A stretch of DNA of 64,000 nt from Mycobacteroides chelonae CCUG 47445 (GTDB lineage: Bacteria > Actinomycetota > Actinomycetes > Mycobacteriales > Mycobacteriaceae), in NCBI RefSeq assembly GCF_001632805.1, contig NZ_CP007220.1:3410001-3474000 (forward strand). The letters are read 5' to 3'. The translations under genes were made by a program, and so were the position numbers. The notes beneath the pieces are model-generated. The model was not told the DNA's origin, did not search any database, and was given only the letters and a program-made list of their open reading frames with translations. Shown here piece after piece: positions 35,630-51,928 of this stretch (within the stretch, counting starts at the first letter, position 1; each line of letters begins with the position of its first letter).

Positions 35630-36337
35630 CTACTGGTTCAGCGGCAGTTGCGCGATGATCGGGCCCGTCGGCGAGGTCGAACCGCTGCCCTTCTCGACAG
35701 AGAATGCCAATACGGTGGAGTTGTTGAGGTGGGGTATGACCGCTGTGGTCGACGGTGCGACGGCCTGAGTGTCCATGGTTCCCGCCGACTCCGGCCCGCG
35801 GTCGCCGATCAGCCACATTTGGTAAACAGTGCCCGGTTGTGGTGGTGCGACATTGTTCATCACCAACACCGCCGTGTTCTTCTGCCGCGAGTAGACGACC
35901 GTCACGGTACCACCGGTCGGGATGGAGCCGCTGACTGTGCGCACATCGGTTGCGGTGAAGACCTGCTGCGCGGATGGTGGCGGGGGCCGCAGGATGGTGC
36001 CGATCCCAGCCGCCGCGAGACCGATGGCAGTGGCGGCCGCAACCGCGACCAAGGGCGCTCTCCAGCGGTTGATATCTTTTGCCCCGGAATCTCTTTGGAT
36101 GTCCCGGGCCACAATCTTGAGCAGTCGCGGGCGCAGCCGAGCCGGAGGTTCGACCGCGGTACTTGCCGCCAGGGACGCCATAGTTTCCCGTGTGGCACGC
36201 ACTTCCTGGGTAAAAGACAGCGTTTGTTCGGTCGCTCCGGCTGACAGCCAACGATCGATGTGGTCTCGTTCATCGTCGGGCAGTGCATGCAGTGCGTATG
36301 GGGTGGCGGCAGTGATGAGGTCGTTGGGTTCGGTCAT
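35630..36337 (-). CDS. rskA: Anti-sigma-K factor RskA
   Basis: 235 residues from ATG 36337, whose ATGA overlaps the sigK stop. The cytosolic N-terminal domain (TPYALHALPDDERDHIDRWL) binds SigK, one membrane span lies at about 85-108 (PLVAVAAATAIGLAAAGIG), and the extracytoplasmic C-terminal domain carries VYQMWLIGDRGPESAGTM and FSVEKGSGSTSPTGPI. It aligns with M. tuberculosis RskA (Rv0444c). Regulated proteolysis of such membrane anti-sigma factors releases SigK. The signal is unknown. Confidence 0.92.
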   Translation of the reverse strand: MTEPNDLITAATPYALHALPDDERDHIDRWLSAGATEQTLSFTQEVRATRETMASLAASTAVEPPARLRPRLLKIVARDIQRDSGAKDINRWRAPLVAVAAATAIGLAAAGIGTILRPPPPSAQQVFTATDVRTVSGSIPTGGTVTVVYSRQKNTAVLVMNNVAPPQPGTVYQMWLIGDRGPESAGTMDTQAVAPSTTAVIPHLNNSTVLAFSVEKGSGSTSPTGPIIAQLPLNQ

Positions 36338-36915
36338 GATGTCCCCAGGCATCGGCGCAGCGCCTTGATCGCGTCACGCATACGAGACTTGATAGTTGCC
36401 AGATTAGCGGCAAGCCGTTGTGAGACTTGGTTATAAGTCAAACCGTCATAGTAGGCCAGATGTAGGCACTGGCGTTGTGTATCCGTGAGTGTGTCGAGGC
36501 ATTCGGTCACTTGCCGCTGCTCTTCGTTACGGATCACCGATTCGGTGACCTCGTCGGCGGCGCGCTCGATAGTGGCGGCGCCATAGCGCGACTCGCGGTC
36601 GGCTGCGGATTGCTCCGAACGCACACGATCGATGGCGCGGCGATGAGCCAAGGTCATGATCCAGGCCAGAGGCGATCCGGCAGTCGGGTCATAGCTTTGG
36701 GCTGAACGCCAGATCTGTAGGTAGATCTCTTGCGTTGTCTCCTCGCTATAGCCGGGGTCCCGTAGTACCCGCAGCACCAGCCCGTATACACGCGAGCGGG
36801 TGTGATCGTAGAGAGCGGCGAATGCCGCGGAATCACGGTCGGCGACATTACGCAAGAGGGTATCCAGGTCGCCAGTCACGCCCGTGAGCCTAAACGCATC
36901 GCGGAGAATGTTCAT
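36334..36915 (-). CDS. sigK: ECF RNA polymerase sigma factor SigK
   Basis: 193 residues. Region 2 contains LVLRVLRDPGYSEETTQEIYLQIWRSA and WIMTLAHRRAIDRVR; region 4 contains LTDTQRQCLHLAYYDGLTYNQVSQRLAANLATIKSRM. Both match M. tuberculosis SigK (Rv0445c). ATG 36915 overlaps the DUF1295 stop (ATGA); GTG 36879 would give a protein closer to the M. tuberculosis length. As the fifth gene of the operon starting at the SigK-type promoter near 41.03 kb, it should be autoregulated. Confidence 0.92.
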   Translation of the reverse strand: MNILRDAFRLTGVTGDLDTLLRNVADRDSAAFAALYDHTRSRVYGLVLRVLRDPGYSEETTQEIYLQIWRSAQSYDPTAGSPLAWIMTLAHRRAIDRVRSEQSAADRESRYGAATIERAADEVTESVIRNEEQRQVTECLDTLTDTQRQCLHLAYYDGLTYNQVSQRLAANLATIKSRMRDAIKALRRCLGTS

Positions 36916-37697
36916 GGCGATTGGCGTTTCGGGGGACGTGGCAGGATAAATGAGACCCGGCGTTGGTAGTCGGCGAATCCGGGCCGACCGGCCATTGCCT
37001 TCTCAGTGCGGCGGCCTCCGGTGGCGTAAACCAGGAAGTAGGTCATCAGCACCGGGTAAGGCACCGTTGCCAACGATTGCCAGCCAGTGATGGTGATCAA
37101 CCACAGCCCCCACCACACGCAGGCATCGCCAAAATAGTTCGGGTGCCGAGTCCAGGCCCAAAGGCCCTGCTCCATGATCTTGCCCTTGTTGGCCGGGTCC
37201 TGTTTGAAACGGCGCAGCTGATAATCACCCACCGCTTCGAAAATCATTCCAAGAAGCCATAACCCGATACCGACGGCTACCACGGGGCGCAGCGACTCGG
37301 GGGTCGGCCCTTCGACAGCCGAGCGTTGGACGGGCAGGGATACCAGCCACGTGGCAGCGGCCTGGATGATGAAGATCTTGCGCAACACATGCGGCACCGA
37401 GAAGTCGCCACCAAGCAGGTCACGATACCGCGGATCTTCGCCTTTCCCAGCCGACTTCACCCACATGTGCCACGAGAGTCGGCCCCCCCATATCCCGACG
37501 AGCGCGAGCAGCAGAACTTGGCGCTGCCGGTCACCGTCACCGAACGCGGTGCACACCACGGCCACCGCGATGAACCCTAGGCCCCACGCCACGTCGACCA
37601 CGTTGTAACGGCCTATGCGGTAGCCGATCAGGAACGTGACACTGTGCACGGCCACGACAGCGCACAGCGAGCACACCATCACGGTGAAGAAGTTCAT
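36912..37697 (-). CDS. DUF1295 membrane protein (steroid 5-alpha-reductase-like), Rv0446c-like
   Basis: 261 residues from ATG 37697 overlapping the ufaA1 stop. Six to seven membrane spans. The signature motif GLWAWTRHPNYFGDACVWWG is the reductase-type cofactor-binding end found in steroid 5-alpha-reductases and isoprenylcysteine methyltransferases. Relatives lie next to cyclopropane synthase genes in many bacteria, so a role in modification of membrane lipids or sterol-like molecules is likely, but the reaction is unproven. Confidence 0.85.
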   Translation of the reverse strand: MNFFTVMVCSLCAVVAVHSVTFLIGYRIGRYNVVDVAWGLGFIAVAVVCTAFGDGDRQRQVLLLALVGIWGGRLSWHMWVKSAGKGEDPRYRDLLGGDFSVPHVLRKIFIIQAAATWLVSLPVQRSAVEGPTPESLRPVVAVGIGLWLLGMIFEAVGDYQLRRFKQDPANKGKIMEQGLWAWTRHPNYFGDACVWWGLWLITITGWQSLATVPYPVLMTYFLVYATGGRRTEKAMAGRPGFADYQRRVSFILPRPPKRQSP

Positions 37698-38968
37698 TGT
37701 TGACCTCGCTGGAAAATCCATTGGTGGACATCGAGATACCCGGACCGGAACCCCGCCTCCGAGTAGGCCAGATACAGCTGCCACATTCGGTAGAACGCGT
37801 CGTCGAATCCCAGCGCCAGCACGCTCTCGCGCCGGGCCGCGAGCTGCTGACTCCATAACCGCAGTGTTTCGGCGTAGTGCGGCCGCAGGGACATTGTCTC
37901 GATGGTCCGCAAATGCGTGTTATCAGTGGTCGTTTCGGTGATTGCCCGCACCGAGGGAAGCAGGCCGCCCGGGAAAATGTACTTCTGTATCCAGGTGTGG
38001 GTGTTGCGACTGGCCAGCATCCGCTCGTGGGGCATGGTGATGGTTTGAAGGGCCAGCCGGCCGCCCGGTCTGAGCAATCGGTCGATGTTTTGGAAGTATG
38101 TTGTCCAGAAATCGAACCCGACCGCTTCGAGCATCTCTATCGACACGATGGCGTCATAGTGGCCTTGAACATCTCGATAGTCGCACAGCTCTACCTGTAC
38201 TCGGTCGGATAGCCCGGCAGCTTTTACCCGCCGCAGAGCCAGTTTCTGTTGCTCGCTCGACAACGTGACCGACCGCACGTGCGCTCCGCGAGCAGCGGCC
38301 GATAAGCACAATTGCCCCCAACCCGTACCGATCTCGAGAACCCGGGTGCCGGGACCTACCTGTGCGTGGTCCAGCAAGCGGTCGATCTTGCGGTGTTGGG
38401 CATCCGCCAGGATCGCCGTTGAGCCCGGGATGTGGTCGAACAGCGCACACGAGTAGGTCAGTGTCTCGTCCAGGAACAGGGAGAAAAAGTCGTTCGACAG
38501 GTCATAGTGATGCGCAACATTGCGCTGGGCCTGTGGTGGCTCGTTGCGCTGAGCTTGCGGGACGCGCGGCACGGCGAGATGCCGGAAGCGTTGCAAGACG
38601 GGGGGAATCAACTCCCCCATCGATGCCGCCCATGGAGTGAGAAAGCCCGCCAGATCGTCGCAGTCCCAGTCTCCGTTCGTGTAGGCCTCGCCGAATCCGA
38701 TCAACCCGGATCGACCCAGACGTCGTGCCAGTGCCGTCGGCCGTCGAACTCTCATGGTGGGCAGGGACGTATCTGCTGCCCCTACGACGGACCCGTCCGG
38801 GTACACCACCCGCACCGGGAGCCGCGCGGCCGCACGGCGCAGCAGCTTGTCGGCTACTACCGCTCGTGCCGCTGCCAGCGGCCCGGATGGAACCGGTGCG
38901 ATATCCAGCTGGCGATGCGCTCTGATTTCACGCGCATCGGGGGTGGCGCTGTCGAGATGACCGTTCAC
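37694..38968 (-). CDS. ufaA1: Cyclopropane-fatty-acyl-phospholipid synthase family methyltransferase UfaA1
   Basis: 424 residues from GTG 38968 (GTGA overlaps the DUF1365 stop). An N-terminal domain (about 1-125) is followed by the methyltransferase with HHYDLSNDFFSLFLDETLTYS, SAM motif VLEIGTGWGQL, and the bicarbonate-site region SIEMLEAVGFDFW. Rv0447c is its match; it has been reported to methylate oleate to tuberculostearic acid using SAM and NADPH. The adjacent FAD protein and DUF1365 protein are expected partners in the reductive step. Confidence 0.88.
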   Translation of the reverse strand: MNGHLDSATPDAREIRAHRQLDIAPVPSGPLAAARAVVADKLLRRAAARLPVRVVYPDGSVVGAADTSLPTMRVRRPTALARRLGRSGLIGFGEAYTNGDWDCDDLAGFLTPWAASMGELIPPVLQRFRHLAVPRVPQAQRNEPPQAQRNVAHHYDLSNDFFSLFLDETLTYSCALFDHIPGSTAILADAQHRKIDRLLDHAQVGPGTRVLEIGTGWGQLCLSAAARGAHVRSVTLSSEQQKLALRRVKAAGLSDRVQVELCDYRDVQGHYDAIVSIEMLEAVGFDFWTTYFQNIDRLLRPGGRLALQTITMPHERMLASRNTHTWIQKYIFPGGLLPSVRAITETTTDNTHLRTIETMSLRPHYAETLRLWSQQLAARRESVLALGFDDAFYRMWQLYLAYSEAGFRSGYLDVHQWIFQRGQQ

Positions 38969-39702
38969 GCTACCCATTCCCTCTCGCGTGTAGGCGTGCG
39001 CTTCACCACTGGTAACCCTTTCAGCCACAGCCTGATCCCTTCCTTACGGATGGCCAGCGCACCCATTAGTGGCGCCAGGGGCGCAACGGCCTGCAACCAC
39101 AACAGTTCCCCGACCCCGGCCCGGCGCCGAGTGCCGTGCACCGCGGCGAAGAACGGCTGCTGGCCGCTGCGCTGCAGCGAGATACTGATGTTCAATGTGT
39201 TGCCGGGGCGGGCAGCCCGAACCCGGTATCGCCCGTCGACACCGTTGAACGGGGATACGTAAAGCTGTTTGTCCACTGTGGAATTGGTGGTTGGAGGTAG
39301 CAGATATGCGTGCCGTCCGCCATAGGTGTTATGGACCTCGGCAATGATGTGGGCGAGATTGCCGTGGCGATCATGGCACCAGTACAGGCTCAGTGGGTTG
39401 AAGACGTGACCCAACACCCGTGCCTGCAGCAGCGCGGTGACCGTACCGCCGCCCAGTTCTACCCCGTGCGCGGCCAAGAATCGATCCACACGTTGGCGCA
39501 GTGTGTCGTCAACATCGCCCCGGAAATGGTCCCGTGCTTGGAAATTGGCGAAGGCACGCAGACCGAAGGGCAGGCGCGGCGGCTTGTCGATATCGATGTA
39601 CCAGCAGTAGCCACGATAGGTGAACCGGTGCGTCACCGGTGAACGCCGCACATGGATGATCCGGGTGCGGTACAGGCAGGGAACCATCGTCGCCGAATTC
39701 AT
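38965..39702 (-). CDS. DUF1365 family protein, Rv0448c-like
   Basis: 245 residues. Typical family text: RIIHVRRSPVTHRFTYRGYCWYIDID, LQARVLGHVFNPLSLYWC, and VSPFNGVDGRYRVRA. DUF1365 genes almost always stand between an FAD amine-oxidase-like protein and a cyclopropane synthase, as here, so it probably takes part in the same lipid modification. ATGA overlap with the FAD gene. Confidence 0.87.
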   Translation of the reverse strand: MNSATMVPCLYRTRIIHVRRSPVTHRFTYRGYCWYIDIDKPPRLPFGLRAFANFQARDHFRGDVDDTLRQRVDRFLAAHGVELGGGTVTALLQARVLGHVFNPLSLYWCHDRHGNLAHIIAEVHNTYGGRHAYLLPPTTNSTVDKQLYVSPFNGVDGRYRVRAARPGNTLNISISLQRSGQQPFFAAVHGTRRRAGVGELLWLQAVAPLAPLMGALAIRKEGIRLWLKGLPVVKRTPTREREWVA

Positions 39703-41021
39703 CGCGCTCCCACGCGATGCTCGCGCTTGGCGGCCGCACCGACCGGCCAGTCCCGGCCCAGTGCTTGTGCGGCACGTAGGCCCGCGGCGGCACCGTCCTC
39801 ATGGAAACCCCATCCATGGTACGCACCGGCGAACGCGATACGGCCGTCGTTGAGACTTGGCAGTCTGCGTTGGGCGGCAACAGATTGCGGCGTATAGACC
39901 GGGTGCTGGTAGGTCATTTCGGCAAGCACCGCCCCGGAGTCTACGAGATGCTCGCCACCGAGGGTGACCAGAAACCTGCGCGGACCGGGCAGTCTCATCA
40001 ACCGGGTGATGTCATACGTCACCACGACGCCCTGGGGACCTCCGCCACACAGGTAGTTCCACGACGCACGGGCACGGGGATGTCGCGGTAACAGTGACTC
40101 GTCGGTATGTAGTTGTGCGGAATTGCTCACGTAACCAATGGCTCCCAGCACCGCGCGCTCGGCAGCGGTCGACTGCGCCAGCAGGGCCAGCGCCTGATCG
40201 GGATGCGTCGCGACGACGGCGGCATCAAACACCTTCGGCGGATGCCCCGCAGCTGTCACCACCACACCCTCGGAAATCCGTCTGACTTCGGCGACAGGGG
40301 AATCGGTGAATGCCTCGTGTAGGCCGCGCACCACCGCGTCGACATACGTGCGCGAGCCCCCTACCACTGTTTTCCACTGCGGCGACCCGAATACCGACAG
40401 CATGCCGTGATGGTCCAGGAACCTGAACAGGTACTGCGCCGGGTACGCCATGGCCTGCCCGGGCGGGCACGACCACACGGCGGCCACCAGTGGTGTCAGG
40501 AAGCGGTCGAGGAAGAACTGTGAGAAACCCAGCTGCCGAACAAAATCCCCGAGACTCAGGGCATTGTCGTCTGCATCGGGGGCAGCGAGCAATCGGCGGG
40601 CATGGCGATGAAAGCGCTTGATCTCTGCCAGCATCCACAGATAGCGAGGATTCGCTGTCGCGGGCGAAGCAAAGAGGCCGCGCACGCCCTTTGCACCCGC
40701 GTATTCCAGCCCAGTGCTGCCATCGCGCACCGACATCGACATATCCGTGTCAGAGGTGGCGATACCGAGTTCGTCGAACAATCGACACAGTGTGGGGTAG
40801 GTCCGGTCGTTGTGCACCAAGAACGCGGTGTCGACCGCGGTCAGCGCGCCTTGGCCCGCATCGACGAACTGAGTGTGGGCGTGTCCCCCGAAACGCCCAT
40901 CGGCCTCGTACAACGAGACGTGGTCGTAGGCAGAGAGCACGTGAGCTGCGGTTAGTCCGGCCACCCCACTGCCGATGACGGCGACGGACCGTGACCCGTC
41001 GGCGCCAGATATTGCACTCAC
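39699..41021 (-). CDS. FAD-dependent amine oxidase-like protein, Rv0449c-like
   Basis: 440 residues from GTG 41021. Dinucleotide-binding motif VAVIGSGVAGLTAAHVL near the start, RFGGHAHT, AMAYPAQYLFRFLDHHGML, and the C-terminal FAD contact FAGAYHGWGFHEDGAAAGLRAA. It is the first gene of the sigK operon. The length matches Rv0449c. The -10 element of the SigK-type promoter ends 7 nt before this GTG, so the transcript is probably leaderless, which explains the absent ribosome site. Probable redox partner of UfaA1. Confidence 0.88.
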   Translation of the reverse strand: MSAISGADGSRSVAVIGSGVAGLTAAHVLSAYDHVSLYEADGRFGGHAHTQFVDAGQGALTAVDTAFLVHNDRTYPTLCRLFDELGIATSDTDMSMSVRDGSTGLEYAGAKGVRGLFASPATANPRYLWMLAEIKRFHRHARRLLAAPDADDNALSLGDFVRQLGFSQFFLDRFLTPLVAAVWSCPPGQAMAYPAQYLFRFLDHHGMLSVFGSPQWKTVVGGSRTYVDAVVRGLHEAFTDSPVAEVRRISEGVVVTAAGHPPKVFDAAVVATHPDQALALLAQSTAAERAVLGAIGYVSNSAQLHTDESLLPRHPRARASWNYLCGGGPQGVVVTYDITRLMRLPGPRRFLVTLGGEHLVDSGAVLAEMTYQHPVYTPQSVAAQRRLPSLNDGRIAFAGAYHGWGFHEDGAAAGLRAAQALGRDWPVGAAAKREHRVGAR

Positions 41022-41028
41022 ACCCCGT

Positions 41029-41055
41029 ATTCGGAGTAAACCTGCCCGCGGATGG
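41029..41055 (-). promoter_or_regulatory. SigK-type promoter for the Rv0449c-like/sigK operon
   Basis: On the minus strand CCATCC (41055-41050) and CCGAAT (41034-41029) are separated by 15 nt. These are the -35 and -10 elements remembered for mycobacterial SigK promoters. Transcription would start about at the GTG at 41021. Confidence 0.8.
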
Positions 41056-41109
41056 GTACTGCCTCCATCGGGCGGCGTCTCGGCGCGGTCCAGCTTTTGC
41101 GCCACCGAC

Positions 41110-41136
41110 CCATCCGGAGAACGTTTGGCACCGAAT
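41110..41136 (+). promoter_or_regulatory. SigK-type promoter for the cyclopropane synthase-photolyase operon
   Basis: CCATCC (41110-41115) and CCGAAT (41131-41136) with the same 15-nt spacer as the divergent promoter 55 bp away. It would start a transcript near 41143 with an untranslated leader of about 105 nt before the cyclopropane synthase gene. Confidence 0.8.
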
Positions 41137-41249
41137 TATCACCAAGCCGCACAGACATGCCCTCAGAGTGCGGCCCTTCCCGTGCGCCCGCGGGAGGAAG
41201 GCCAGCAGGTAGACGTTCCCCCGTACCGCCTACGAAAGGTTCCGCCCAG

Positions 41250-42143
41250 ATGTCAGACTCACCGCGGCTTCGCCCACACTTCGCCGATGTTCAGGCTCAT
41301 TACGACCTGTCAGACGATTTCTTCCGTCCTTTTCTCGACCCGACCCAGACATATAGCTGCGCCTACTTCGAACGCGACGATATGACTCTTCAGGAGGCTC
41401 AAATCGCCAAGATCGACCTGGCGTTGGGCAAGCTGCACCTGGAGCCCGGGATGACGCTGCTGGATGTGGGGTGCGGTTGGGGTGCCACCCTCAATCGCGC
41501 ACTGGAAAAGTACGACGTCAACGTCATCGGTTTGACTCTGAGCAAAAATCAGAAGGCGCACGTCGAGAAGCTTTTGGCGGCGTCCTCGAGCACCCGGTCA
41601 AAGAGCGTCCAGCTGCACGGGTGGGAAGAGTTCGACGGCAAGGTCGATCGGATCGTGTCGATCGGCGCATTCGAACATTTCGGCTTTGACCGCTACGACG
41701 ACTTTTTCAGGTTCGCCTACAACGCGCTGCCTGACGACGGCGTCATGCTGCTGCACACCATCACCGGGTTGCACCCCAACGAAATCACCGCCAAGGGTCT
41801 GCCGCTGAGTTTCGAGCTGGCACGCTTCATCAAATTCATAATCACCGAGATCTTCCCTGGCGGTCGCCTCCCCACCATCGAGATGGTGCGAGAGCATGCC
41901 GAGCGGGCGGGCTTCACCTGCACGCGAGTACACCAACTGCAGCAGCACTACGCCAAGACCCTGGACCTGTGGGCGGCAGCACTCAAGGAACACAAGGATG
42001 AGGCCATCGCCATCCAGGATGAGGTTGTCTACGAGCGTTACATGAAGTACCTCACCGGATGTGCGAACTACTTCCGCATCGGCTACATCGACGTCGCCCA
42101 ATTCACCCTCCCGAAGCTGCACATCCCGTATCTCGAGAAGTAG
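41250..42143 (+). CDS. Cyclopropane/mycolic acid-type SAM methyltransferase
   Basis: 297 residues from ATG 41250 with GAAAGG upstream. The family start RPHFADVQAHYDLSDDFF, the TYSCAYFERDDMTLQEAQIAK segment, SAM motif LLDVGCGWGATLNRALEKYDV and SIGAFEHFGFDRYDDFF match the CmaA/MmaA/PcaA and UfaA2 group. It adds a methylene or methyl group to a double bond of a lipid chain. First gene of the rightward SigK-type operon; a different subfamily from UfaA1 in the other arm. Confidence 0.88.
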   Translation: MSDSPRLRPHFADVQAHYDLSDDFFRPFLDPTQTYSCAYFERDDMTLQEAQIAKIDLALGKLHLEPGMTLLDVGCGWGATLNRALEKYDVNVIGLTLSKNQKAHVEKLLAASSSTRSKSVQLHGWEEFDGKVDRIVSIGAFEHFGFDRYDDFFRFAYNALPDDGVMLLHTITGLHPNEITAKGLPLSFELARFIKFIITEIFPGGRLPTIEMVREHAERAGFTCTRVHQLQQHYAKTLDLWAAALKEHKDEAIAIQDEVVYERYMKYLTGCANYFRIGYIDVAQFTLPKLHIPYLEK

Positions 42144-42166
42144 CGATCGTCGAAAGGAGCAAGAAA

Positions 42167-42814
42167 TTGAGTGCCATCGTGCCGCTGTGGACTCTGGGGG
42201 CCGAACTACTCAAAGCCGCGGGCAATATCGTCGGAATCCGTTCGGGGACCGAAGAACCGCGGTACTCGTCACGGCCTCTGACCGCTTCGGTGCAGATCAG
42301 GCAGTACAGCAGCCGAATCGCGGCAGAAACCACCGTCTTGGCCGATGACGACCGGGCACGCAGCGAGGGTTTTCGCCGCCTTGCGGGTTACATTTTCGGC
42401 AAGAACCACAGACAGGCCAAGATCGCCATGACCGCACCAGTAGCCCAACAAAACGACACCATCGCCATGACGGCCCCAGTAAGCCAACTGTCAAGTCCAA
42501 CTGGCGGTTCAATAATCCGGTTTTACATGCCGGCGAAATGGACGCTGGCAAGCCTGCCCACTCCGGGCGATGAGAGCATCCGGCTCACCGAAGTGCCTGC
42601 CGAGACGCTCGCGGTGCTGCGCTTCAGCGGTGACCGATCGGTGGCCACCGTCGCCAGACGAACCGATGAGCTGCTTAATACCCTGCGCAACAAAAACATA
42701 GAGACCTCGGGCGATCCCCAAGCCTGGTTCTACGACCCGCCGTGGACACTCTCGTGCGCTCGACGCAACGAGATTGCCGTCCCCATCCACACACGGGGCG
42801 ACGACGGCTTCTGA
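42167..42814 (+). CDS. SOUL family heme-binding protein
   Basis: 215 residues from TTG 42167 with GAAAGGAG 6 nt upstream. The SOUL/HBP pattern is seen in VQIRQYSSRIAAETTV, AGYIFGKNHRQAKIAMTAPV, FYMPAKWTLASLP and the terminal WFYDPPWTLSCARRNEIAVPI. SOUL proteins bind heme or porphyrin intermediates. Lies 23 nt after the methyltransferase. Porphyrins are photosensitisers, so binding them would suit a light-stress regulon. Confidence 0.85.
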   Translation: MSAIVPLWTLGAELLKAAGNIVGIRSGTEEPRYSSRPLTASVQIRQYSSRIAAETTVLADDDRARSEGFRRLAGYIFGKNHRQAKIAMTAPVAQQNDTIAMTAPVSQLSSPTGGSIIRFYMPAKWTLASLPTPGDESIRLTEVPAETLAVLRFSGDRSVATVARRTDELLNTLRNKNIETSGDPQAWFYDPPWTLSCARRNEIAVPIHTRGDDGF

Positions 42815-42863
42815 GGGACCACGCAGAGGACGGCGGAACTAGACTTCCCGTGATCGGAGACTT

Positions 42864-44222
42864 ATGGGTATCAGTGGCTCGGTGATTGTCGACGCGTCCG
42901 TCGAGGACGTGTTCGCCTGGTACTCCAGGCCGGGCGCGTTCAATCGCTTGGCGGCACCGTGGGCGCCGGTCGAGGTGCGTACCGAAGCCGCCTCGCTGCG
43001 CGACGGGACTGCTGTATTGGATTTACCGGGAGGCTTGCGCTGGGTCGCCCGGCACGATCAGAAAGCGTTCCTGCCCGGCCGGCGATTCGTCGACGAAGGA
43101 GTTGCGACGGGACTGCGATCGGCGGTCAGTGGTGTGTTGCCCTGGCGGCATATTCACGAGTTCGAGCCCGTCGGCGATAGCAGCACGCGGGTGCGCGACA
43201 CGATCGAAACTCCCATTCCGGAGCGCCTTCTCGCCGACCTCATCGCATATCGCCACCGGCAACTCACCTGGGATCTGGCGGCACATCGGAGGGCCGCCGA
43301 CCACGGAATAAACGCCTTGACGGTGGCTGTTACCGGCGCAACCGGCTTAGTGGGCACCGCACTTACCGCGTTCCTCAGCACCGGTGGACACCGCGTGATT
43401 CGCCTAGTCCGCGGAGAGCCGAAGAGTCCTACGGAGCGAAATTGGGAGCCAGACAATCCCGACCCGGCCGCGCTCGAGGGCGTTGATGCCGTTATCCATC
43501 TGGCGGGTGCCACCATCGCCGGACGCTTCACCCAGCGGCACAAAGAGCTGATCGCCTCAAGCCGAATCGAGCCCACGCGCCTGCTTTCCCGAGCCGCCGC
43601 ATCCGCAGGTGTCGGTACCTTCGTGAGCGCCTCAGCGGTGGGGTACTACGGGAAGAACCGAGACGACGAAACGCTCACCGAGACAAGCCCTCCCCCGCCG
43701 ACGGCAGACTTTCTTTCCAACGTGGTGGCTCGTTGGGAGCAGGCAGCGTTAGCCGGCGAGGGTGCCGAGACCCGCGTTGTCACTGTCCGCACCGGCATAG
43801 TTCAGTCACCACGCGGCGGAACGCTCAAGCTTCTGCTCCCGCTCTTCCGGGCCGGTTTGGGCGGACGCCTGGGCTCCGGCACCCAGTGGTTGCCCTGGAT
43901 CGGCATCGACGACTTGGTGGACATCTATCATCGCTGCCTGTGGGACCTTTCGCTATCGGGCCCCGTTAACGCCGTGGCGCCCGGCGTGGTTCGCAACATC
44001 GACTACACGCGCGCACTGGCCCAGGCGGTCCACCGCCCGGCCGTCGTACCAGTGCCTGCCTTCGGCCCTGCGCTCCTACTCGGACGCGAGGGCGCCGATG
44101 AACTCGCGATGGCAAGTCAGCGTGTCTCTCCGGCAACGCTATTGGACCGTCAGCATGTTTTCCGCACGCACAATATCGGCCCCGCCCTGGGGCATCTCTT
44201 GGGAAGCCCGATCGGTTCGTGA
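42864..44222 (+). CDS. TIGR01777-type protein: SRPBCC domain fused to SDR epimerase
   Basis: 452 residues. Residues 1-150 are a SRPBCC domain (ISGSVIVDASVEDVFAWYSRPGAFNRLA); residues about 152-450 are an extended SDR with the cofactor motif VTGATGLVGTALTAFL, VIHLAGATIAGRFT and the C-terminal DUF1731-like LLGREGADELAMASQRVSP. The family is linked to cell-division inhibitor SulA-like annotation but has no proven reaction. It is coupled to the photolyase by GTGA overlap. Confidence 0.87.
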   Translation: MGISGSVIVDASVEDVFAWYSRPGAFNRLAAPWAPVEVRTEAASLRDGTAVLDLPGGLRWVARHDQKAFLPGRRFVDEGVATGLRSAVSGVLPWRHIHEFEPVGDSSTRVRDTIETPIPERLLADLIAYRHRQLTWDLAAHRRAADHGINALTVAVTGATGLVGTALTAFLSTGGHRVIRLVRGEPKSPTERNWEPDNPDPAALEGVDAVIHLAGATIAGRFTQRHKELIASSRIEPTRLLSRAAASAGVGTFVSASAVGYYGKNRDDETLTETSPPPPTADFLSNVVARWEQAALAGEGAETRVVTVRTGIVQSPRGGTLKLLLPLFRAGLGGRLGSGTQWLPWIGIDDLVDIYHRCLWDLSLSGPVNAVAPGVVRNIDYTRALAQAVHRPAVVPVPAFGPALLLGREGADELAMASQRVSPATLLDRQHVFRTHNIGPALGHLLGSPIGS

Positions 44223-45586
44223 CCGTTATCTGGTGGGCCCGCCGCGACTTGCGGTTGGCCGACAATCCCGCGCTCCGGGCTGCGGCCGCGAGCGGTGATG
44301 TGCTTGCCGTCTTTGTCCTGGACCCGCAGTTGCTTGGTAGCGCAGCACGCCCGCGGGATGCGTGGCTTGCCGCCAGCGTTGTTGACCTTGATCAACAGCT
44401 CGATGGACGGCTCTGCCTCTGTTCCGGTGCGCCGGAACAGGTCCTGGTAGAGCTGGCTGAACGTGTCGGCGCAAGTGAAGTGCACGTGGCCCGGGAGACG
44501 ACCCCCTTCGGCAGGCGCCGAGATACGTCGGTATCGGCCGCGCTGGCCAAGATCGGTGTGGACTGGATCGAGACGGGCTCGCCCTACGCAGTGACGCCGG
44601 GCCGAATCACTAAATCAGACGGGTCTGCGTATCGGGTGTTCACCGCGTTCGAACGCGCCTGGCGCGAGCACCACTGGCCGCGCCCCGCCCAGCTGAACAC
44701 CAGCCCTCCCTGGGCGAAGCCTCCCAAGTCCGCACAATCAGGCCCCGCTCGGTCGTTACTCGCCGAGCTCGCCCAAAGCTGCAGCATCACTTTGCCTCCC
44801 GCAGGTGAAGGTGCGGCCCGCGCGCGGTGGGAACACTTCCTCAAACACGAGCTGACCGGGTATGCCGTCGGTCGTGACCGCGCCGACGTGGACGCCACAT
44901 CCAAGATCTCGCCCTACCTCAAAGTCGGGGCGATCCACCCCCGCACATTGCTTGCCGACCTGGCAGCCATCACAGGCCAGGACGCCGCCAAATTCAGGTC
45001 GGAGCTCGCCTGGCGAGACTTCTATGCCGACGTGCTGTACCACCAGCCGCAATCCGCGCACGCCGACTTGACCGATGCCCTAGCGCATTTGACCTATACC
45101 GAACCCGGCGAGGGCTTCACGGCCTGGCAACGCGGGGAAACCGGATACCCATTGGTGGATGCCGGCATGCGGCAACTACTTGCCGAAGGGTGGATGCATA
45201 ACCGAGTACGGATGGTCACCGCGAGCTTCCTCACCAAGGATCTCCACATCTGGTGGCCACATGGAGCCAAGCACTTCATGAACCATCTCATCGACGCCGA
45301 TAGCGCATCCAACACACACGGCTGGCAATGGGTCGCGGGAACGGGCACCGATGCGGCGCCGTACTTCCGAGTCTTCAACCCCACGGCTCAAGCGCAAAAG
45401 TTCGACCCGAACGGCGAATACATCCGCAGACACATCCCGGAACTACGGCACCTGCCCGGAGCCTCGGCCATCACACCCTGGAAACACCCCGACGGCCATG
45501 CGCGCGGGTACCCGACACCCATCCTCGATCACGCAGAGGAACGGAACATCGCGCTGCACCGTTACCGGTCCAGGCAAGACCACTAG
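44219..45586 (+). CDS. phr: Deoxyribodipyrimidine photolyase
   Basis: 455 residues. N-terminal antenna domain (VIWWARRDLRLADNPAL), C-terminal FAD domain with WRDFYADVLYHQP, GMRQLLAEGWMHNRVRMVTA, DLHIWWPHGAKHFMNHLIDAD and HGWQWVAGTGTDAAPYFRVF. It splits UV-induced cyclobutane pyrimidine dimers using blue light. GTG start overlapping the TIGR01777 gene. The position at the end of an operon with a SigK-type promoter links DNA photorepair to SigK. Confidence 0.93.
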   Translation: MTVIWWARRDLRLADNPALRAAAASGDVLAVFVLDPQLLGSAARPRDAWLAASVVDLDQQLDGRLCLCSGAPEQVLVELAERVGASEVHVARETTPFGRRRDTSVSAALAKIGVDWIETGSPYAVTPGRITKSDGSAYRVFTAFERAWREHHWPRPAQLNTSPPWAKPPKSAQSGPARSLLAELAQSCSITLPPAGEGAARARWEHFLKHELTGYAVGRDRADVDATSKISPYLKVGAIHPRTLLADLAAITGQDAAKFRSELAWRDFYADVLYHQPQSAHADLTDALAHLTYTEPGEGFTAWQRGETGYPLVDAGMRQLLAEGWMHNRVRMVTASFLTKDLHIWWPHGAKHFMNHLIDADSASNTHGWQWVAGTGTDAAPYFRVFNPTAQAQKFDPNGEYIRRHIPELRHLPGASAITPWKHPDGHARGYPTPILDHAEERNIALHRYRSRQDH

Positions 45587-46077
45587 CTATTCAGCTGCCA
45601 CACCGAGAAATTCAGCACCGCCGCGAACGTCGTCCATGCCACATAGGGAAGCAACAAGATTGCGGCCCAACGGCTTCGGTTCCAGAAAAGCACCACCGTT
45701 GCGGCAACAAATCCCCATAGCACCAGGATCTCGATGAATGCCACTCCCCGCCAGCCAAGTCCAAAGAACAGCGGTGTCCACGCCATGTTCAGGACGAGCT
45801 GTACGCCGTACACAATCAGCGGCACACGGTTTTCCTGTGATGGCTCTGACCGCCATACCAGCCAGGCCGATATCGCCATCAATACATACAGCGCCGTCCA
45901 TACGGGACCAAAAAGGTAGGCCGGTGGCGCCCAACCAGGTTGTTGCAGGCGCCCATAGGTGTCCGCAGCGCGCGTCGCGGCTGCGCCGCCAACTCCCGCG
46001 GCGACGGTCACCGCAATGACAGAAACGGCGAGCGCAGCCCACTCCCTGGGCCAGCGGCGCGAAATCCCCTGAGTCAT
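45583..46077 (-). CDS. tspO: TspO/MBR family tryptophan-rich sensory protein
   Basis: 164 residues from ATG 46077. Five membrane spans and the family motifs LQQPGWAPPAYLFGPVWTALYVLMAISAWLVW-type text (here QPGWAPPAYLFGPVWTALY), LVLNMAWTPLFFGLGW and the terminal YVAWTTFAAVLNFSVWQLN. TspO binds porphyrins and in Rhodobacter controls light- and oxygen-dependent genes. Overlaps the convergent photolyase gene by 4 nt. No SigK-type promoter is seen upstream of it. Confidence 0.9.
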   Translation of the reverse strand: MTQGISRRWPREWAALAVSVIAVTVAAGVGGAAATRAADTYGRLQQPGWAPPAYLFGPVWTALYVLMAISAWLVWRSEPSQENRVPLIVYGVQLVLNMAWTPLFFGLGWRGVAFIEILVLWGFVAATVVLFWNRSRWAAILLLPYVAWTTFAAVLNFSVWQLNS

Positions 46078-46266
46078 ATCGACATAGTAGACAGAATTCG
46101 CACGTCGGTAATGCTCTACTCCGATCTCGGTCCAACATCGCCGGACGTCCTCGCCCGGGTACGTGCCCGTGGTTCTGAAACCCATCAACACTCAAGCGGA
46201 GACGTCGGGATAATGAGGTCTGGCAAGCAGCTAAGGCAGCGGCCATAGTCGAAGCGCTGGCTGTCT

Positions 46267-47813: not shown

Positions 47814-48383
47814 TTAGCCAGTTCGGCCAGACCAGATCTCGGCCAGTACCGATTTGGGTGTGCGCCTGCCGCCACGCCATTGCGCGACAGCTTCTTGTGG
47901 CCACACATAGGAAGGGAAGAACAGCGTTGACAGATCCGGGCCGATCAGCACCGAACCCGCGCCTCTGGCCTCGCTTGAGACCACGACGATCCCATCTTCC
48001 ATGTCATTTGCCCGGGCAGCTGCTGCTTCAAGGGTCCCATTGAGGAGCCCCGCGGCCACACTGAGTTTCTCGTCACGGGTTGCCACATGGGAGTGGCGTC
48101 CTACCGTTTCCGAGGGTAACTGCCAAAGCAAAGCGAACTCTTCGACCGGTGTACGTTGTCCGCTGCGCCAGTATTCGAGCGCATCGTTGCCGTCATTGAA
48201 CGGCGGTACGAACATGGTTGAAAGATCGGGAGCGACCACCACGGCACCAACTTTAGGCAGTGGACTTTCGATCAAGATCAAACCAGACTCAAGGTCTTGA
48301 GCGGTCTGCTCCGCCGCATCGATGCCAATGTTCATGCACTGAGCACCGACCGCGATCTGCTGCTCTCTACTCACCCTAATCAC
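47814..48383 (-). CDS. Two-repeat domain protein, candidate immunity protein
   Basis: 189 residues from GTG 48383, whose GTGA overlaps the toxin stop. It consists of two copies of one roughly 85-residue domain: residues about 5-90 (GAVVVAPDLSTMFVPPF, ALEYWRSGQRTPVEEFALLW) and about 100-185 (GSVLIGPDLSTLFFPSY, AVAQWRGGRRTPKSVLAEIW). Coupling directly to a toxin ending in a papain-like domain is the usual immunity-gene position. No known immunity family was recognised by eye. The domain may bind the toxin as a tandem unit. Confidence 0.7.
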   Translation of the reverse strand: MIRVSREQQIAVGAQCMNIGIDAAEQTAQDLESGLILIESPLPKVGAVVVAPDLSTMFVPPFNDGNDALEYWRSGQRTPVEEFALLWQLPSETVGRHSHVATRDEKLSVAAGLLNGTLEAAAARANDMEDGIVVVSSEARGAGSVLIGPDLSTLFFPSYVWPQEAVAQWRGGRRTPKSVLAEIWSGRTG

Positions 48384-51300
48384 CCTTTGCCTGCCAAGAC
48401 GCCCATGTCCCAGTGTGTGACCGGGGCCCCTGGCGCATCCATGTTAGGCGGCCAACCAAATATTTTCCCCACCTGACCATCTATCGCCCACACGTTCTGG
48501 CCATCGTAATACGCGTTAAACCAGTGCCCTGCAACCCCGTTGGCGCGATCTACCCCAACGATCGTGTGTGCTCCCGGCCCCTGCTTAATGAGGTTCCGTG
48601 CAATCTGATCCGGGCTCATCGACACCTGTTTGAACCCCGTCGCCGCCTCCATCTCGGAAATCGAGAGTGTGCCCAGGCCAGCCGTTGCATCAGGCGCGTG
48701 GCCTGACAACCGGTGTTCAATCGCTAGCGCACAGTTGCCGCAATTCACTGCACGCCCTGGCGTCGATATTCCGGGACTATTGATCTGCTTCAGCCAACCA
48801 CCGATCTCCTCGACGCTCGCCACACCAGGTCTTGCGGCCCGTACTGCCGCGCCTTCGCCACCAAAAGGAAGCGTGGCTATGACTGGAGCTGCTTGCCCTG
48901 CCTCAACCCCGAAGCCGTATGCAAGGCTGGGCGCATCCTTGATCTGCTCGACGCTGTGAACAGTCGAACCCACAGGGCCGTCCGCGAGTCTCCCAAGTAG
49001 ACTTCGCCACGCATCCGGCATCGCATCGACGCCCTTCTCGCCCTGGCCTCCAAGGTCGCGTATCCCTTCGAATAGGCCATCCCAGCCCTCCTTGAACCCA
49101 TCAGCAAATCCTGGTGCTGGCTGCCTAGTCGTCGGTGCCTGCCCCCAAGAAACAACCGGCTTTTGCTTCGACAAAAGCTCAGCCATCTTGTTGATCTGGG
49201 CATCAACGGTTTCGGGCGGCAGCTTCTGATCCAATAGGTACTGGCGTGCGTGGTCCAAAAGCGCTTTGCCCTCAGTACTGCTGGGGTCCAGCGGCATCGA
49301 GACGCTCGGCGATGTCGATGGTGTCGGCGGCTTCCAGGTGTCCCGAACGCCAGGCAACATGGCCATACTGCCTGCAGCAGGGTTCGGCGTGGACGGCGTT
49401 GGTGTGCTGGCGGCCTGCGCCGTGTTCAGGGCCTGCAGCGGTGCCGGGAATGCCGAAGCTTCCAGCGGTGAGAGTGGCTTAGAGGTTGAGGTCTGGTTGG
49501 CGGTCTTCGGTGTGGAAGGGTTGGACGGTTGAGGCGGCTGCTGGGGTGCCTGAGTGGTGGTGCTATCGAGCGCCTGCACGCTCGATGACGATTGCGACGG
49601 CACAGTTGGCGGTGTGGGTGGTTTGGGGACGTCGGTGGGTCCGTTGACGGCGGTCGCCGTCCCCGACAACGCATCCGTAGCACCGGAGGTGTCGGGCATG
49701 CCGGAGGCGCCGAGGCTAGAGACGGTGTTGACGACACCGGACACCTGGGAGATGCCGCCTGCGACTTGGCCAGTGAGGTCGGCGACCTGGCCACCGGCCT
49801 GGGTGAGCTGCTGGATCTGCTCGGCCTGAGGTTTGAGTTGCGGGTTCACGTCGGCGGCCAGTTGTGCGCCCTGCCCGGCCTCATTGAGCCATGTCGAGGC
49901 AATCGAAGCCCCGGAGCCCACGGCGTCCGCTGTATCGCTGATACCCCCAGACACCCCTTGTACCAACGCAACAGCGTCCATGGGGTTGACTGCACCGGAC
50001 TGCGCCGACGACGCGAGCGAAGCCCCAGCTTGGGCAGCGGACCCGAAGTTCTGTGCCGCTGATCCCGCCGATTGACCCAGATTCACACTGTCGGAGACGG
50101 TATTGGAGATATCTCCAGGCAGGGACTGCCCCAACTGCGCGCCGTCTTGCGCGAGCGCCTGAGTGTCCGGACCCTGCTCCTGCTGTTGGTCGGGCTGAGA
50201 CTGGTCGTCCTGCTTGCGGCGGCGCGTGGACGCCGCCCCCATCAACAACGCCGACAGGTCATTATTGCCTGATTGGTCGTCCTGATCCTGCTGGTCTTTG
50301 TCGTCCTGCTTCTTATCCTTGGACGGCGCTTTGGGGAGTTTCTCGTTGCCGCTCTGCTTCTGCTGTCCCTGCTGTTGCAGCTGCTTAGTCAGATCATCAA
50401 TGCGCTGCCGATCCTGACCGGACTGCTGCTGCTTCTCCTGCAGCTGACGCGTCAGGTCATCGATCTTCTGCTGATCCGGCTGATCCGGTGACTGGTTCGG
50501 CTGCTGCCCCGCATCTTGTTGCGGCGGCTGCTGCTGCTGAGGTGCCTGCTGCACGCCCTGCTGCGGTTGTTGGGCTGGCTGCTGCCCGCCCTGGTTCGGT
50601 TGGCCGCCTTGCGATCCCGGATTGGCCTGTCCGCCGTTGAAATCTGGATTCGGCTTACCTGGTCCTTGGGTGTACGGCGTCGCGTTCTGATAATCCGGAA
50701 TCTGAGTACCGTGTGCGGGCTGATCCCATCCCTGCTGAGACCCCTGCTGCCCACTGGATCCGTTCACACCATTGTTGCTGACCGAGGGTGCCTGAGTGTT
50801 ATAGATACTGATGCCGCTGTTCTGATCCAGCGGCGCCTGGTTGATACCGCCCTGATAGTCCGGCATCTGCGGCCCACCCTGACTGGGCGGCTGAAACATC
50901 TGCCCACCCCCAGGCGGACCATCACTACCACCTGGACCACCACAATCCGGCGGACACGCCGCCCGCGCCTGCGGCACCGTCGCCGGACTAAACCACCCCA
51001 AACCCAAACCACTTGCCGAAAACATCAACACCGCAACAACACCCGCGACAGCGCCAGCCTTCTGCGAAGCATCCGTGGCCCACTTCCACAGACCCACAAG
51101 GCCTTTCCACCACCCCAGATTCGAACCAACCGCCCACACCAACGTGCCCGCAATCGCCGCCACCGCAGGAAACACATCCGGGCCCGTGATCCACACATAC
51201 AACCGCGGAGTAATCCCAGCAGTCAGCAGCACCAACCCCAAACCACCACCGATCAAGGCGGCCACCAGGCCCGGATGCCACAGTCCTTCCGGTGCGCGGC

Positions 51301-51928
51301 GCTTGCCGGTTGCCCGGTCACGCTCAATGAGCAGACCCGAGTCAGCGAGAGCCTCCTTAGCCAGGCCGGTCATATACCTGCCGCCGGTGAACAATGCAGC
51401 ACCGGCAAGAACCGCCACCAGCATCTGGCCGATTCCCAACGACAACGACCACTGACTCTCACCGGTGAGGTGCTGCCACCAGATGGCGTACCCACCACGG
51501 AACGTCCACCACATGCCCAACCCGCCAACGATTACCGCAGCAGCCGCCACGACAGCCAGCAGCGGCTCGGACAGGCGCCCTTTCACCGCGTCAGATAGCG
51601 CCGCCGTTACTGGCCTGATGCCCCACATCGCAAGCTTGATCCCACCACCAAGCGCGGTCAAGGCCAGCAGCAACAGCCCGGCCCAGCCAATCAGCTCGGC
51701 GGCACTATCACCGCTGCGGTACAGGTGGTGCAGCGCAGCCACCGCACCAACCACCAGGACACCCCCAACAGCGAAAGCTGCCAGTCGGTGCCCGAGGTCA
51801 GATCCAGCAGTGCGTCCGGGTTCAAGATCACGCACCGGCAACTTCTGTGTGGTTCCATCGGAACGAGCCTTACCGCGGGCTACCGCCACCGCTGTCAGCT
51901 GTTCAGTCGACTCACCATTCCCCGCCAC
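48380..51928 (-). CDS. Polymorphic toxin: multi-span membrane protein with C-terminal papain-fold toxin domain
   Basis: 1182 residues from GTG 51928 (GGAGG 5 nt upstream). Residues about 45-315 hold seven membrane spans (for example LAAFAVGGVLVVGAVAALHH, LLAVVAAAAVIVGGLGMWW, AVAGVVAVLMFSASGLGLGW). From about 320 follows a Gly/Pro-rich stretch beginning ACPPDCGG, then a Gln-rich coil-like linker (about 420-560), an Ala/Ser region and a Pro/Ser/Thr region to about 900. The last 125 residues resemble papain-fold toxins: VNCGNCALAIEHRLSG with Cys1063, GHWFNAYYDG with His1135 and WAIDGQVGK with Asp1150 as the likely triad. No signal peptide or WXG motif is visible; the membrane part may be its export or delivery device, in the manner of TrbL/VirB6-like toxins. 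Confidence 0.8.
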   Translation of the reverse strand: MAGNGESTEQLTAVAVARGKARSDGTTQKLPVRDLEPGRTAGSDLGHRLAAFAVGGVLVVGAVAALHHLYRSGDSAAELIGWAGLLLLALTALGGGIKLAMWGIRPVTAALSDAVKGRLSEPLLAVVAAAAVIVGGLGMWWTFRGGYAIWWQHLTGESQWSLSLGIGQMLVAVLAGAALFTGGRYMTGLAKEALADSGLLIERDRATGKRRAPEGLWHPGLVAALIGGGLGLVLLTAGITPRLYVWITGPDVFPAVAAIAGTLVWAVGSNLGWWKGLVGLWKWATDASQKAGAVAGVVAVLMFSASGLGLGWFSPATVPQARAACPPDCGGPGGSDGPPGGGQMFQPPSQGGPQMPDYQGGINQAPLDQNSGISIYNTQAPSVSNNGVNGSSGQQGSQQGWDQPAHGTQIPDYQNATPYTQGPGKPNPDFNGGQANPGSQGGQPNQGGQQPAQQPQQGVQQAPQQQQPPQQDAGQQPNQSPDQPDQQKIDDLTRQLQEKQQQSGQDRQRIDDLTKQLQQQGQQKQSGNEKLPKAPSKDKKQDDKDQQDQDDQSGNNDLSALLMGAASTRRRKQDDQSQPDQQQEQGPDTQALAQDGAQLGQSLPGDISNTVSDSVNLGQSAGSAAQNFGSAAQAGASLASSAQSGAVNPMDAVALVQGVSGGISDTADAVGSGASIASTWLNEAGQGAQLAADVNPQLKPQAEQIQQLTQAGGQVADLTGQVAGGISQVSGVVNTVSSLGASGMPDTSGATDALSGTATAVNGPTDVPKPPTPPTVPSQSSSSVQALDSTTTQAPQQPPQPSNPSTPKTANQTSTSKPLSPLEASAFPAPLQALNTAQAASTPTPSTPNPAAGSMAMLPGVRDTWKPPTPSTSPSVSMPLDPSSTEGKALLDHARQYLLDQKLPPETVDAQINKMAELLSKQKPVVSWGQAPTTRQPAPGFADGFKEGWDGLFEGIRDLGGQGEKGVDAMPDAWRSLLGRLADGPVGSTVHSVEQIKDAPSLAYGFGVEAGQAAPVIATLPFGGEGAAVRAARPGVASVEEIGGWLKQINSPGISTPGRAVNCGNCALAIEHRLSGHAPDATAGLGTLSISEMEAATGFKQVSMSPDQIARNLIKQGPGAHTIVGVDRANGVAGHWFNAYYDGQNVWAIDGQVGKIFGWPPNMDAPGAPVTHWDMGVLAGKG

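Follow-up and report, generated by a model that had tools for sequence, protein, structure and literature searches.

The 64,000-nucleotide (nt) stretch analyzed here (the window; positions 3,410,001-3,474,000 of NZ_CP007220.1, the one contig of the 5.03-Mb genome of Mycobacteroides chelonae CCUG 47445) carries two divergent gene arms built around sigK, which encodes an extracytoplasmic function (ECF) sigma factor, and rskA, which encodes its anti-sigma factor. The island is best read, on present support, as a compact, autoregulated SigK-RskA regulon that would answer photo-oxidative stress; the reading is unproven, and we put its probability at roughly 60%. The gene anatomy and promoter motifs on which it is built are secure. 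Family models and inspection of the junctions give six head-to-tail overlapping genes on the minus strand, ufaD-DUF1365-ufaM-DUF1295-sigK-rskA, with ATGA overlaps at ufaD/DUF1365, ufaM/DUF1295, DUF1295/sigK, and sigK/rskA and a GTGA overlap at DUF1365/ufaM. The plus-strand arm runs mycolic-acid-type methyltransferase-SOUL-TIGR01777-photolyase, with a second GTGA overlap at TIGR01777/phr. An earlier reading by a model from the letters alone (the sequence-only reading) had described the same operon, its overlaps and the same divergent arm, and the family models and junctions bear this out. All coordinates below are positions in the window.

Both arms are headed by an exact copy of CCATCC-N15-CCGAAT, as the sequence-only reading had said, and we take this motif to be the mycobacterial SigK promoter consensus. 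That reading had placed the promoters face-to-face, an arrangement that we reject because the -10 elements lie outside and the -35 elements inside; the pair is divergent, back-to-back. A scan of the window with spacers of 13-17 returned 2 matches where 0.09 were expected, a count that 0 of 100 shuffles reached. The island holds both of the genome's exact N15 copies, and the reversed control has 0 genome-wide. Exact hexamers with spacers of 14-17 give six sites; three of the four outside the island fall within open frames by a crude test. A relaxed scan (≤2 mismatches) yielded 649 sites vs 166 for the reversed pattern and was judged uninformative. The genome may hold additional SigK targets with imperfect motifs: the list of one-mismatch sites, which covers the plus strand, has 15 entries, 11 inside open frames of ≥80 codons (crude codon test) and 4 outside. 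The -10 element of the minus promoter ends 7 nt before the GTG of ufaD (41021), and GTG is the ufaD start in all seven genomes with the paired promoter described below; for these reasons the ufaD mRNA is probably leaderless. On the right, 113 nt separate the -10 element of the window from the methyltransferase ATG, and the seven-genome alignment shows GAAAGGTT conserved ahead of it. Judged by these motifs, SigK very likely runs both arms. The tspO gene, which the sequence-only reading had counted with the system, is indeed convergent with phr, whose stop it overlaps by 4 bp. Its upstream region holds no SigK-like site at spacer 15 within 2 mismatches, so we do not count it in the regulon and reject it as a SigK target.

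The sequence-only reading had proposed comparing this gene set across mycobacteria. The exact divergent motif pair is present in 7 of 396 genus genomes, with a total span of 108-111 bp. It is flanked by ufaD and the methyltransferase gene in 7/7, SOUL comes next in 6/7, and photolyase lies ∼3.1 kb downstream in 5/7 (the window genome, G088, G189, G219, and G242; G and L numbers are our handles for genomes and loci); in G168, photolyase is on a different contig from the pair. Neither the window genome nor the six others has a match to the fasciclin family of MPT70 and MPT83 (PF02469). In our 148-genome sample of the genus, where related loci share ancestry so that counts are not independent events, fasciclin genes occur in 117. 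SigK therefore cannot be the MPT70/83 switch in those seven organisms, and we reject such control for the window genome. We take the SigK system of M. tuberculosis to be the six genes Rv0449c-Rv0444c plus mpt83-dipZ-mpt70. The window shares with the mycobacterial SigK-RskA regulon the sigma and anti-sigma families and, presumably, the six-gene operon and the promoter consensus; unlike it, the seven paired-promoter genomes have no fasciclin match, and the window has a second SigK promoter for the methyltransferase-SOUL-TIGR01777-photolyase arm and both of its genome's exact-motif promoters in one island.

In gene order, the left operon matches a furan-fatty-acid operon, a link newly drawn here. 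As described in the passages of PMC7380195 on this pathway, UfaM methylates an 18:1 chain, UfaD (the flavin adenine dinucleotide (FAD) protein RSP1091) desaturates the product, and the furan is then made with O2 by UfaO, the DUF1365 protein RSP1090; RPA2571-2570-2569 of R. palustris are ufaD, ufaO, and ufaM, genes that were expressed in an R. sphaeroides ufaM/ufaD/ufaO triple mutant, and the furan fatty acid vanishes under singlet oxygen, which it scavenges. In the window the ufaD, DUF1365, and ufaM families are contiguous and in the same order. Compared with nine relatives from such neighborhoods, encoded beside DUF1365/CMAS-type genes, the window UfaD shows 37-58% identity and the window UfaO 24-49%; the six proteobacterial relatives, four of them from ChrR loci, stand in for the RSP/RPA proteins, and the 10-sequence UfaO alignment of actinobacterial and proteobacterial members retains 23 invariant columns. 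Against the mycolic-acid methyltransferase model (cut-off 390), the CMAS protein of this arm reaches 164.8 bits and is hence not of that type. The sequence-only reading had drawn a parallel with a cyclopropane synthase-like gene of Rhodobacter, which was understated. Unlike the described pathway, the window version is actinobacterial and its product putative, and many mycobacteria have DUF1365 but no ufaD. We infer, boldly, that the organism may synthesize a furan fatty acid.

These genes recall the singlet-oxygen response of R. sphaeroides, in which, according to PMC7074977 as far as cited here, the RpoE regulon includes RSP_1090/1091, cfaS, phrA, and the fasciclin RSP_1409 and is raised by singlet oxygen. 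Of the RpoE-ChrR target set, ufaD/ufaO, a cfa-type methylase, and photolyase are all in the island, and the fasciclin has no PF02469 counterpart in the window genome. The sensor is unlike: ChrR is a cupin-domain protein (the three plasmid-encoded examples that we tested score Cupin_7), whereas the window RskA matches RskA families only, with no cupin domain and no cysteine (count of 0 in the longest frame), and the window sigma factor passes the SigK cut-off. Hydropathy predicts one membrane segment near RskA residue 99 (longest frame). The same source (2020) describes a singlet-oxygen-induced RpoE-ChrR pair in R. capsulatus that is nearer SigK-RskA than the R. sphaeroides pair and sits beside a photolyase gene.

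Twenty plasmid loci that carry ufaO or ufaD, picked by hand from two match lists, show which anti-sigma factors accompany these genes. ChrR is annotated in nine (Rhizobium tropici, Azospirillum oryzae, A. thermophilum, A. lipoferum, Mesorhizobium terrae, Ensifer, Shinella, Aminobacter, and Pseudoalteromonas) and an RskA_C anti-sigma in three (Burkholderia anthina, Tsukamurella, and Streptomyces NBC_00069); in eight (Cupriavidus, Klebsiella, Azoarcus, Paracoccus, Mesorhizobium jarvisii, Salinivibrio, Rhodococcus, and Streptomyces NBC_00158) the stretch has no annotated anti-sigma. The ChrR loci share further genes with the SigK systems: TspO, DUF1295, and CMAS in Rhizobium tropici; fasciclin, MsrPQ, and a photolyase-related protein beside ChrR-ECF and ufaDOM in Mesorhizobium terrae (L236:9305-14729). 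Photolyase is found in the Pseudoalteromonas and Salinivibrio loci. We also note that the Burkholderia anthina plasmid, typed conjugative, carries an RskA_C anti-sigma, DUF1295, ufaDOM, and GTP cyclohydrolase I (L332:4834-15344).

A profile scan of genome contigs with the UfaD alignment returned at least 598 stretches and 531 relatives, from which the best 80 with record titles were kept; neighbors were called by tblastn, on contigs that are in some cases short. Among these best 80 loci, ufaO is present at 80, ufaM at 75, DUF1295 at 50, sigK with rskA at 36, chrR at 1, and neither at 43. The 36 sigK-rskA loci include fasciclin in 13, an msrP-like gene in 11, photolyase in 6, TIGR01777 in 4, SOUL in 1, and tspO in 1; the 43 loci with neither include photolyase in 8, tspO in 2, fasciclin and TIGR01777 in 1 each, and msrP-like genes in 0. 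Fasciclin and msrP-like genes thus accompany SigK. The msrP-like genes are called from weak matches, at 25-32% identity; three of them, when checked, proved to be molybdopterin oxidoreductases (Oxidored_molyb). The order msrP-like, fasciclin, sigK, rskA, ufaD, ufaO, ufaM, DUF1295 is shared by six Nocardioides loci and one from Pimelobacter. In three Streptomyces loci (L253, L259, and L271) photolyase follows sigK-rskA with gaps of 37, 12, and -8 bp between longest frames; Pfam confirms photolyase and RskA_C in 3/3, and the two sigma factors tested (L259 and L271) pass the SigK cut-off. The Conexibacter sigma factor (L303), counted among the 36 and among the six with photolyase, falls below it. 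In 77 usable windows upstream of ufaD, the spacer-15 motif was found 7 times exactly, 22 times with ≤1 mismatch, and 32 times with ≤2; up to 200 shuffles of the hexamers gave means of 0.005, 0.055, and 0.855 and maxima of 1, 2, and 5, respectively. By these sequence comparisons, the SigK-linked genes resemble the RpoE-ChrR singlet-oxygen regulon (ufaDOM, photolyase, and fasciclin) and recur beside sigK-rskA in other Actinomycetota. As a separate observation, in two Tsukamurella loci (L282 and L326) a TIGR01777 gene is divergent from the ufaD of a sigK operon, and the L282 copy is 68% identical to that of the window. The window photolyase is 89% identical to a protein named for Mycobacteroides abscessus, and its nearest named relative outside the clade is also from Tsukamurella (67%), hinting at gene exchange between the two.

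Within the genus sample, photolyase is matched in 127 of the 148 genomes, and 80 of the loci from these were examined. A same-strand fasciclin gene lies upstream of photolyase in 42/80, with a gap of <200 nt in 6/80; MPT70-like fasciclin genes stand directly before photolyase, on the same strand and at gaps of <150 nt, in L135, L158, L167, L172, L174, and L189, only some with a recognizable SigK site. Exact SigK motifs occur in 15/80 loci, and each of the 19 copies has the same strand as photolyase. Open reading frame maps of 11 of these loci place the motifs ahead of fasciclin or dipZ, with an opposite-strand gene before photolyase in at least 9/11; a SigK-phr operon in other mycobacteria was rejected, as the motifs belong to mpt83/dipZ/mpt70. 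Photolyase also lies near the sigK operon in G078 (L029). In 25/80 loci, tspO, SOUL, or TIGR01777 is near photolyase, and none of the 25 has an exact SigK motif, so the grouping exists without SigK, and the window clade has placed part of it under SigK. Some members of the genus thus have photolyase beside SigK targets and others have it beside the tetrapyrrole group; the window clade has both. We note tspO near photolyase in 19/80 (L148, L155, L157, L161, L162, L165, L166, L168, L170, L176, L179, L180, L188, and L190-L195).

DUF1365 is found in 100 of the 148 genomes, and 60 loci from 59 of these were examined; sigK is matched in 59, rskA in 58, and ufaD in 32. Exact SigK motifs are present in 44/60, and all 46 motifs have a spacer of 15, with 13-18 allowed. 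Of the 28 loci without ufaD, 27 have the short form DUF1365-sigK-rskA, and one (L083), in a 3.3-Mb genome, has a fragmented sigK/DUF1365 operon that appears decayed. The short-form loci (L056, L059-L077, L079-L082, and L084-L086) mostly carry the same exact SigK promoter. By analogy with RSP_1090/1091, which serve full RpoE activation, DUF1365 may itself take part in controlling SigK.

Published light data bear on the proposal from another side. As reported in the cited part of PMC9861118 (2023), exposure of M. kansasii to light for 20 min raised 14 genes, including the crt locus (8 genes) and a PE gene, and the SigK targets mpk83 and mpk70 rose 6-fold and 3-fold. In the ultraviolet (UV) proteome of a soil actinobacterium, RskA was lowered under UV (PMC8965627, in the portion cited). 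Both results are compatible with a light-linked SigK and are no proof of it; the cited text of PMC7509140 states the SigK signal to be unknown. The sequence-only reading had called a light role new. This is true only in part: the light induction of the MPT70/83 homologues and the singlet-oxygen-induced SigK/RskA-like pair of R. capsulatus (PMC7074977) were already in print. The combined reading offered here is stated nowhere in the consulted portions of the literature on SigK, photolyase, furan fatty acids, fasciclin, and singlet oxygen.

In the mechanism that we propose, RNA polymerase with SigK would initiate both divergent transcripts. The left one would raise SigK and RskA along with a furan-fatty-acid-type lipid pathway, in which UfaM would methylate a membrane 18:1 chain, UfaD would desaturate it, and UfaO (DUF1365) would close the furan using O2. 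The right one would add a mycolate-type methyltransferase, a SOUL tetrapyrrole/heme-binding protein, a TIGR01777 oxidoreductase, and photolyase, for which phr is the sole match of the genome at E ≤ 1e-30. The likely trigger would be photo-oxidative damage (singlet oxygen or oxidized lipid), sensed by the extracytoplasmic half of RskA and followed by proteolysis, and the outputs would be a sacrificial membrane lipid, an envelope change, photosensitizer handling, and DNA photorepair. The island would thus be an actinobacterial counterpart of RpoE-ChrR in content, not in sensor.

Several observations weigh against a photo-oxidative regulon, and four are our main reasons for doubt. The sigK operon and dipZ stand outside the light-induced list of M. 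kansasii as given in the cited part of PMC9861118, and oxidizing conditions are reported to stabilize the SigK-RskA complex (PMC7509140, in a passage citing Shukla 2014). At E ≤ 1e-60, ufaD is matched in 53/148 genomes, and 26 of the 27 short-form genomes have no match (the exception, G136, has an additional locus with ufaD), so DUF1365 is not tied in every case to a UfaD-dependent pathway. Among the 80 UfaD loci, photolyase is no commoner with SigK (8/43 loci with neither sigK-rskA nor chrR vs 6/36 with sigK-rskA) and therefore tracks UfaD there, not SigK in particular. Further, light raised phrB-tspO-mmpL2 of M. kansasii 27- to 32-fold (PMC9861118, same part), although none of the 19 tspO-containing photolyase loci examined has an exact SigK motif. 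In the window, too, photolyase and tspO are neighbors, but tspO is convergent and phr belongs to the SigK arm. G050 has the promoter pair and no photolyase. R. capsulatus, according to the cited section of PMC7074977, has no RSP_1087-1091 homologues, so the SigK/RskA-like pair there works without UfaD/UfaO. Finally, M. tuberculosis UfaA1 is reported to make 10-methylstearate in vitro (PMC5660069, as cited in part).

In a rival explanation, SigK would be a general switch for envelope and lipid remodeling (methyl-branched, tuberculostearic-like, or otherwise modified acyl chains and mycolate changes), with photolyase and SOUL as passengers of an insertion nearby. The in vitro activity of UfaA1, the two methyltransferases of the island, the 25/80 photolyase loci in which the SOUL/TIGR01777/tspO grouping has no exact SigK motif, and the confinement of the paired promoters to one clade (7/396) fit this explanation. 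We nevertheless consider it unlikely, given that phr, joined to TIGR01777 by a GTGA overlap, belongs to an arm that begins at an exact SigK promoter, at a distance kept in 5/7 genomes; that photolyase follows sigK-rskA in three Streptomyces loci, is downstream of fasciclin in 42/80 mycobacterial loci, and is near the sigK operon in G078; and that the production of 10-methylstearate in E. coli used two other genes and no DUF1365 (PMC5660069, same part). A signal of envelope redox stress (thiol/disulfide or nitrosative) in place of light, with photolyase carried along since oxidants and light co-occur, appears less probable still. SigK Cys139 and Cys189 are each retained in 87/94 homologues, and their spacing of 50 residues matches that of the redox pair C133/C183 of M. 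tuberculosis (PMC7509140, where SigK-RskA is described as affected by redox state); dipZ beside mpt83/mpt70 and the msrP-like genes beside sigK in 11/36 loci point the same way. However, photolyase works only with light, the UfaDOM product scavenges singlet oxygen (PMC7380195, as above), and mpk83/mpk70 are light-responsive (PMC9861118). Chance matches, or a right-arm motif that is not used, can be set aside as highly improbable: the motif has only 12 bases and relaxed forms are common (649 vs 166 reversed at ≤2 mismatches), but the exact pair is kept in seven genomes at 108-111 bp overall, and 46/46 exact motifs in the 60 DUF1365/sigK loci have spacer 15. The photo-oxidative switch named by the sequence-only reading thus keeps its promoters on both arms in seven genomes, its nearby photolyase in five, the sigK-rskA linkage to ufaD/ufaO/ufaM, fasciclin, and sometimes photolyase in other genera, and the light induction of mpk83/mpk70; it loses tspO, and the SigK-free groupings and the M. 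kansasii light list count against it.

Table 1. Features of the SigK island (positions in the window)
Feature	Position	Strand	Basis
rskA, anti-sigma-K factor	35630..36337	-	Pfam RskA_N 65.9 bits, RskA_C 84.3 bits; ATGA overlap with sigK
sigK, ECF sigma factor	36334..36915	-	NCBIfam SigK subfamily 295.6 bits (cut-off 226)
DUF1295 membrane protein	36912..37697	-	Pfam DUF1295 237.9 bits; start picked by ATGA overlap
ufaM-like S-adenosylmethionine methyltransferase (ufaA1 of the sequence-only reading)	37694..38968	-	Pfam CMAS 318.6 bits
ufaO-like DUF1365 protein	38965..39702	-	Pfam DUF1365 212.1 bits
ufaD-like FAD oxidoreductase, GTG start	39699..41021	-	Pfam Amino_oxidase
SigK promoter motif, left operon, CCATCC-N15-CCGAAT	41029..41055	-	exact match; recurs in genus
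SigK promoter motif, right operon, CCATCC-N15-CCGAAT	41110..41136	+	exact match; recurs in genus
Mycolic-acid-type cyclopropane synthase/methyltransferase (second CMAS)	41250..42143	+	NF040660 509.3 bits (cut-off 390)
SOUL heme-binding family protein, start uncertain (ATG 42059 or TTG 42167)	42059..42814	+	Pfam SOUL 140.1 bits
TIGR01777 family oxidoreductase, N-terminal extension	42864..44222	+	TIGR01777 279.9 bits (cut-off 207.35)
Photolyase (phr)	44219..45586	+	Pfam DNA_photolyase and FAD_binding_7
tspO (longest frame)	45583..46191	-	Pfam TspO_MBR 163.9 bits

Elsewhere in the window, 48380-51928 on the minus strand encodes a 1182-aa proline/glutamine-rich membrane protein, followed by two small genes. 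Its C-terminus may be papain-like, and the region is possibly a polymorphic-toxin or secretion-linked locus.

A wider proposal, which we offer tentatively and hold at somewhat under even odds, is that across Actinomycetota SigK-RskA may be the Gram-positive counterpart of the RpoE-ChrR response, inducing furan-fatty-acid synthesis, photolyase, and fasciclins. MPT70 and MPT83 would then be photo-oxidative or singlet-oxygen stress proteins, like RSP_1409, mycobacteria would make furan fatty acids, and the island of the window would be the minimal form of the system. To our knowledge, MPT70 and MPT83 have no settled function, and a shared photo-oxidative role is a bold part of what we infer. With no fasciclin match and with both exact-motif SigK promoters in one island, the window genome offers a clean test organism. 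Since the SigK-linked genes resemble the RpoE-ChrR regulon, ordinary reporters and gas chromatography-mass spectrometry could be used to test what SigK senses, which lipid is made, and what the antigens do.

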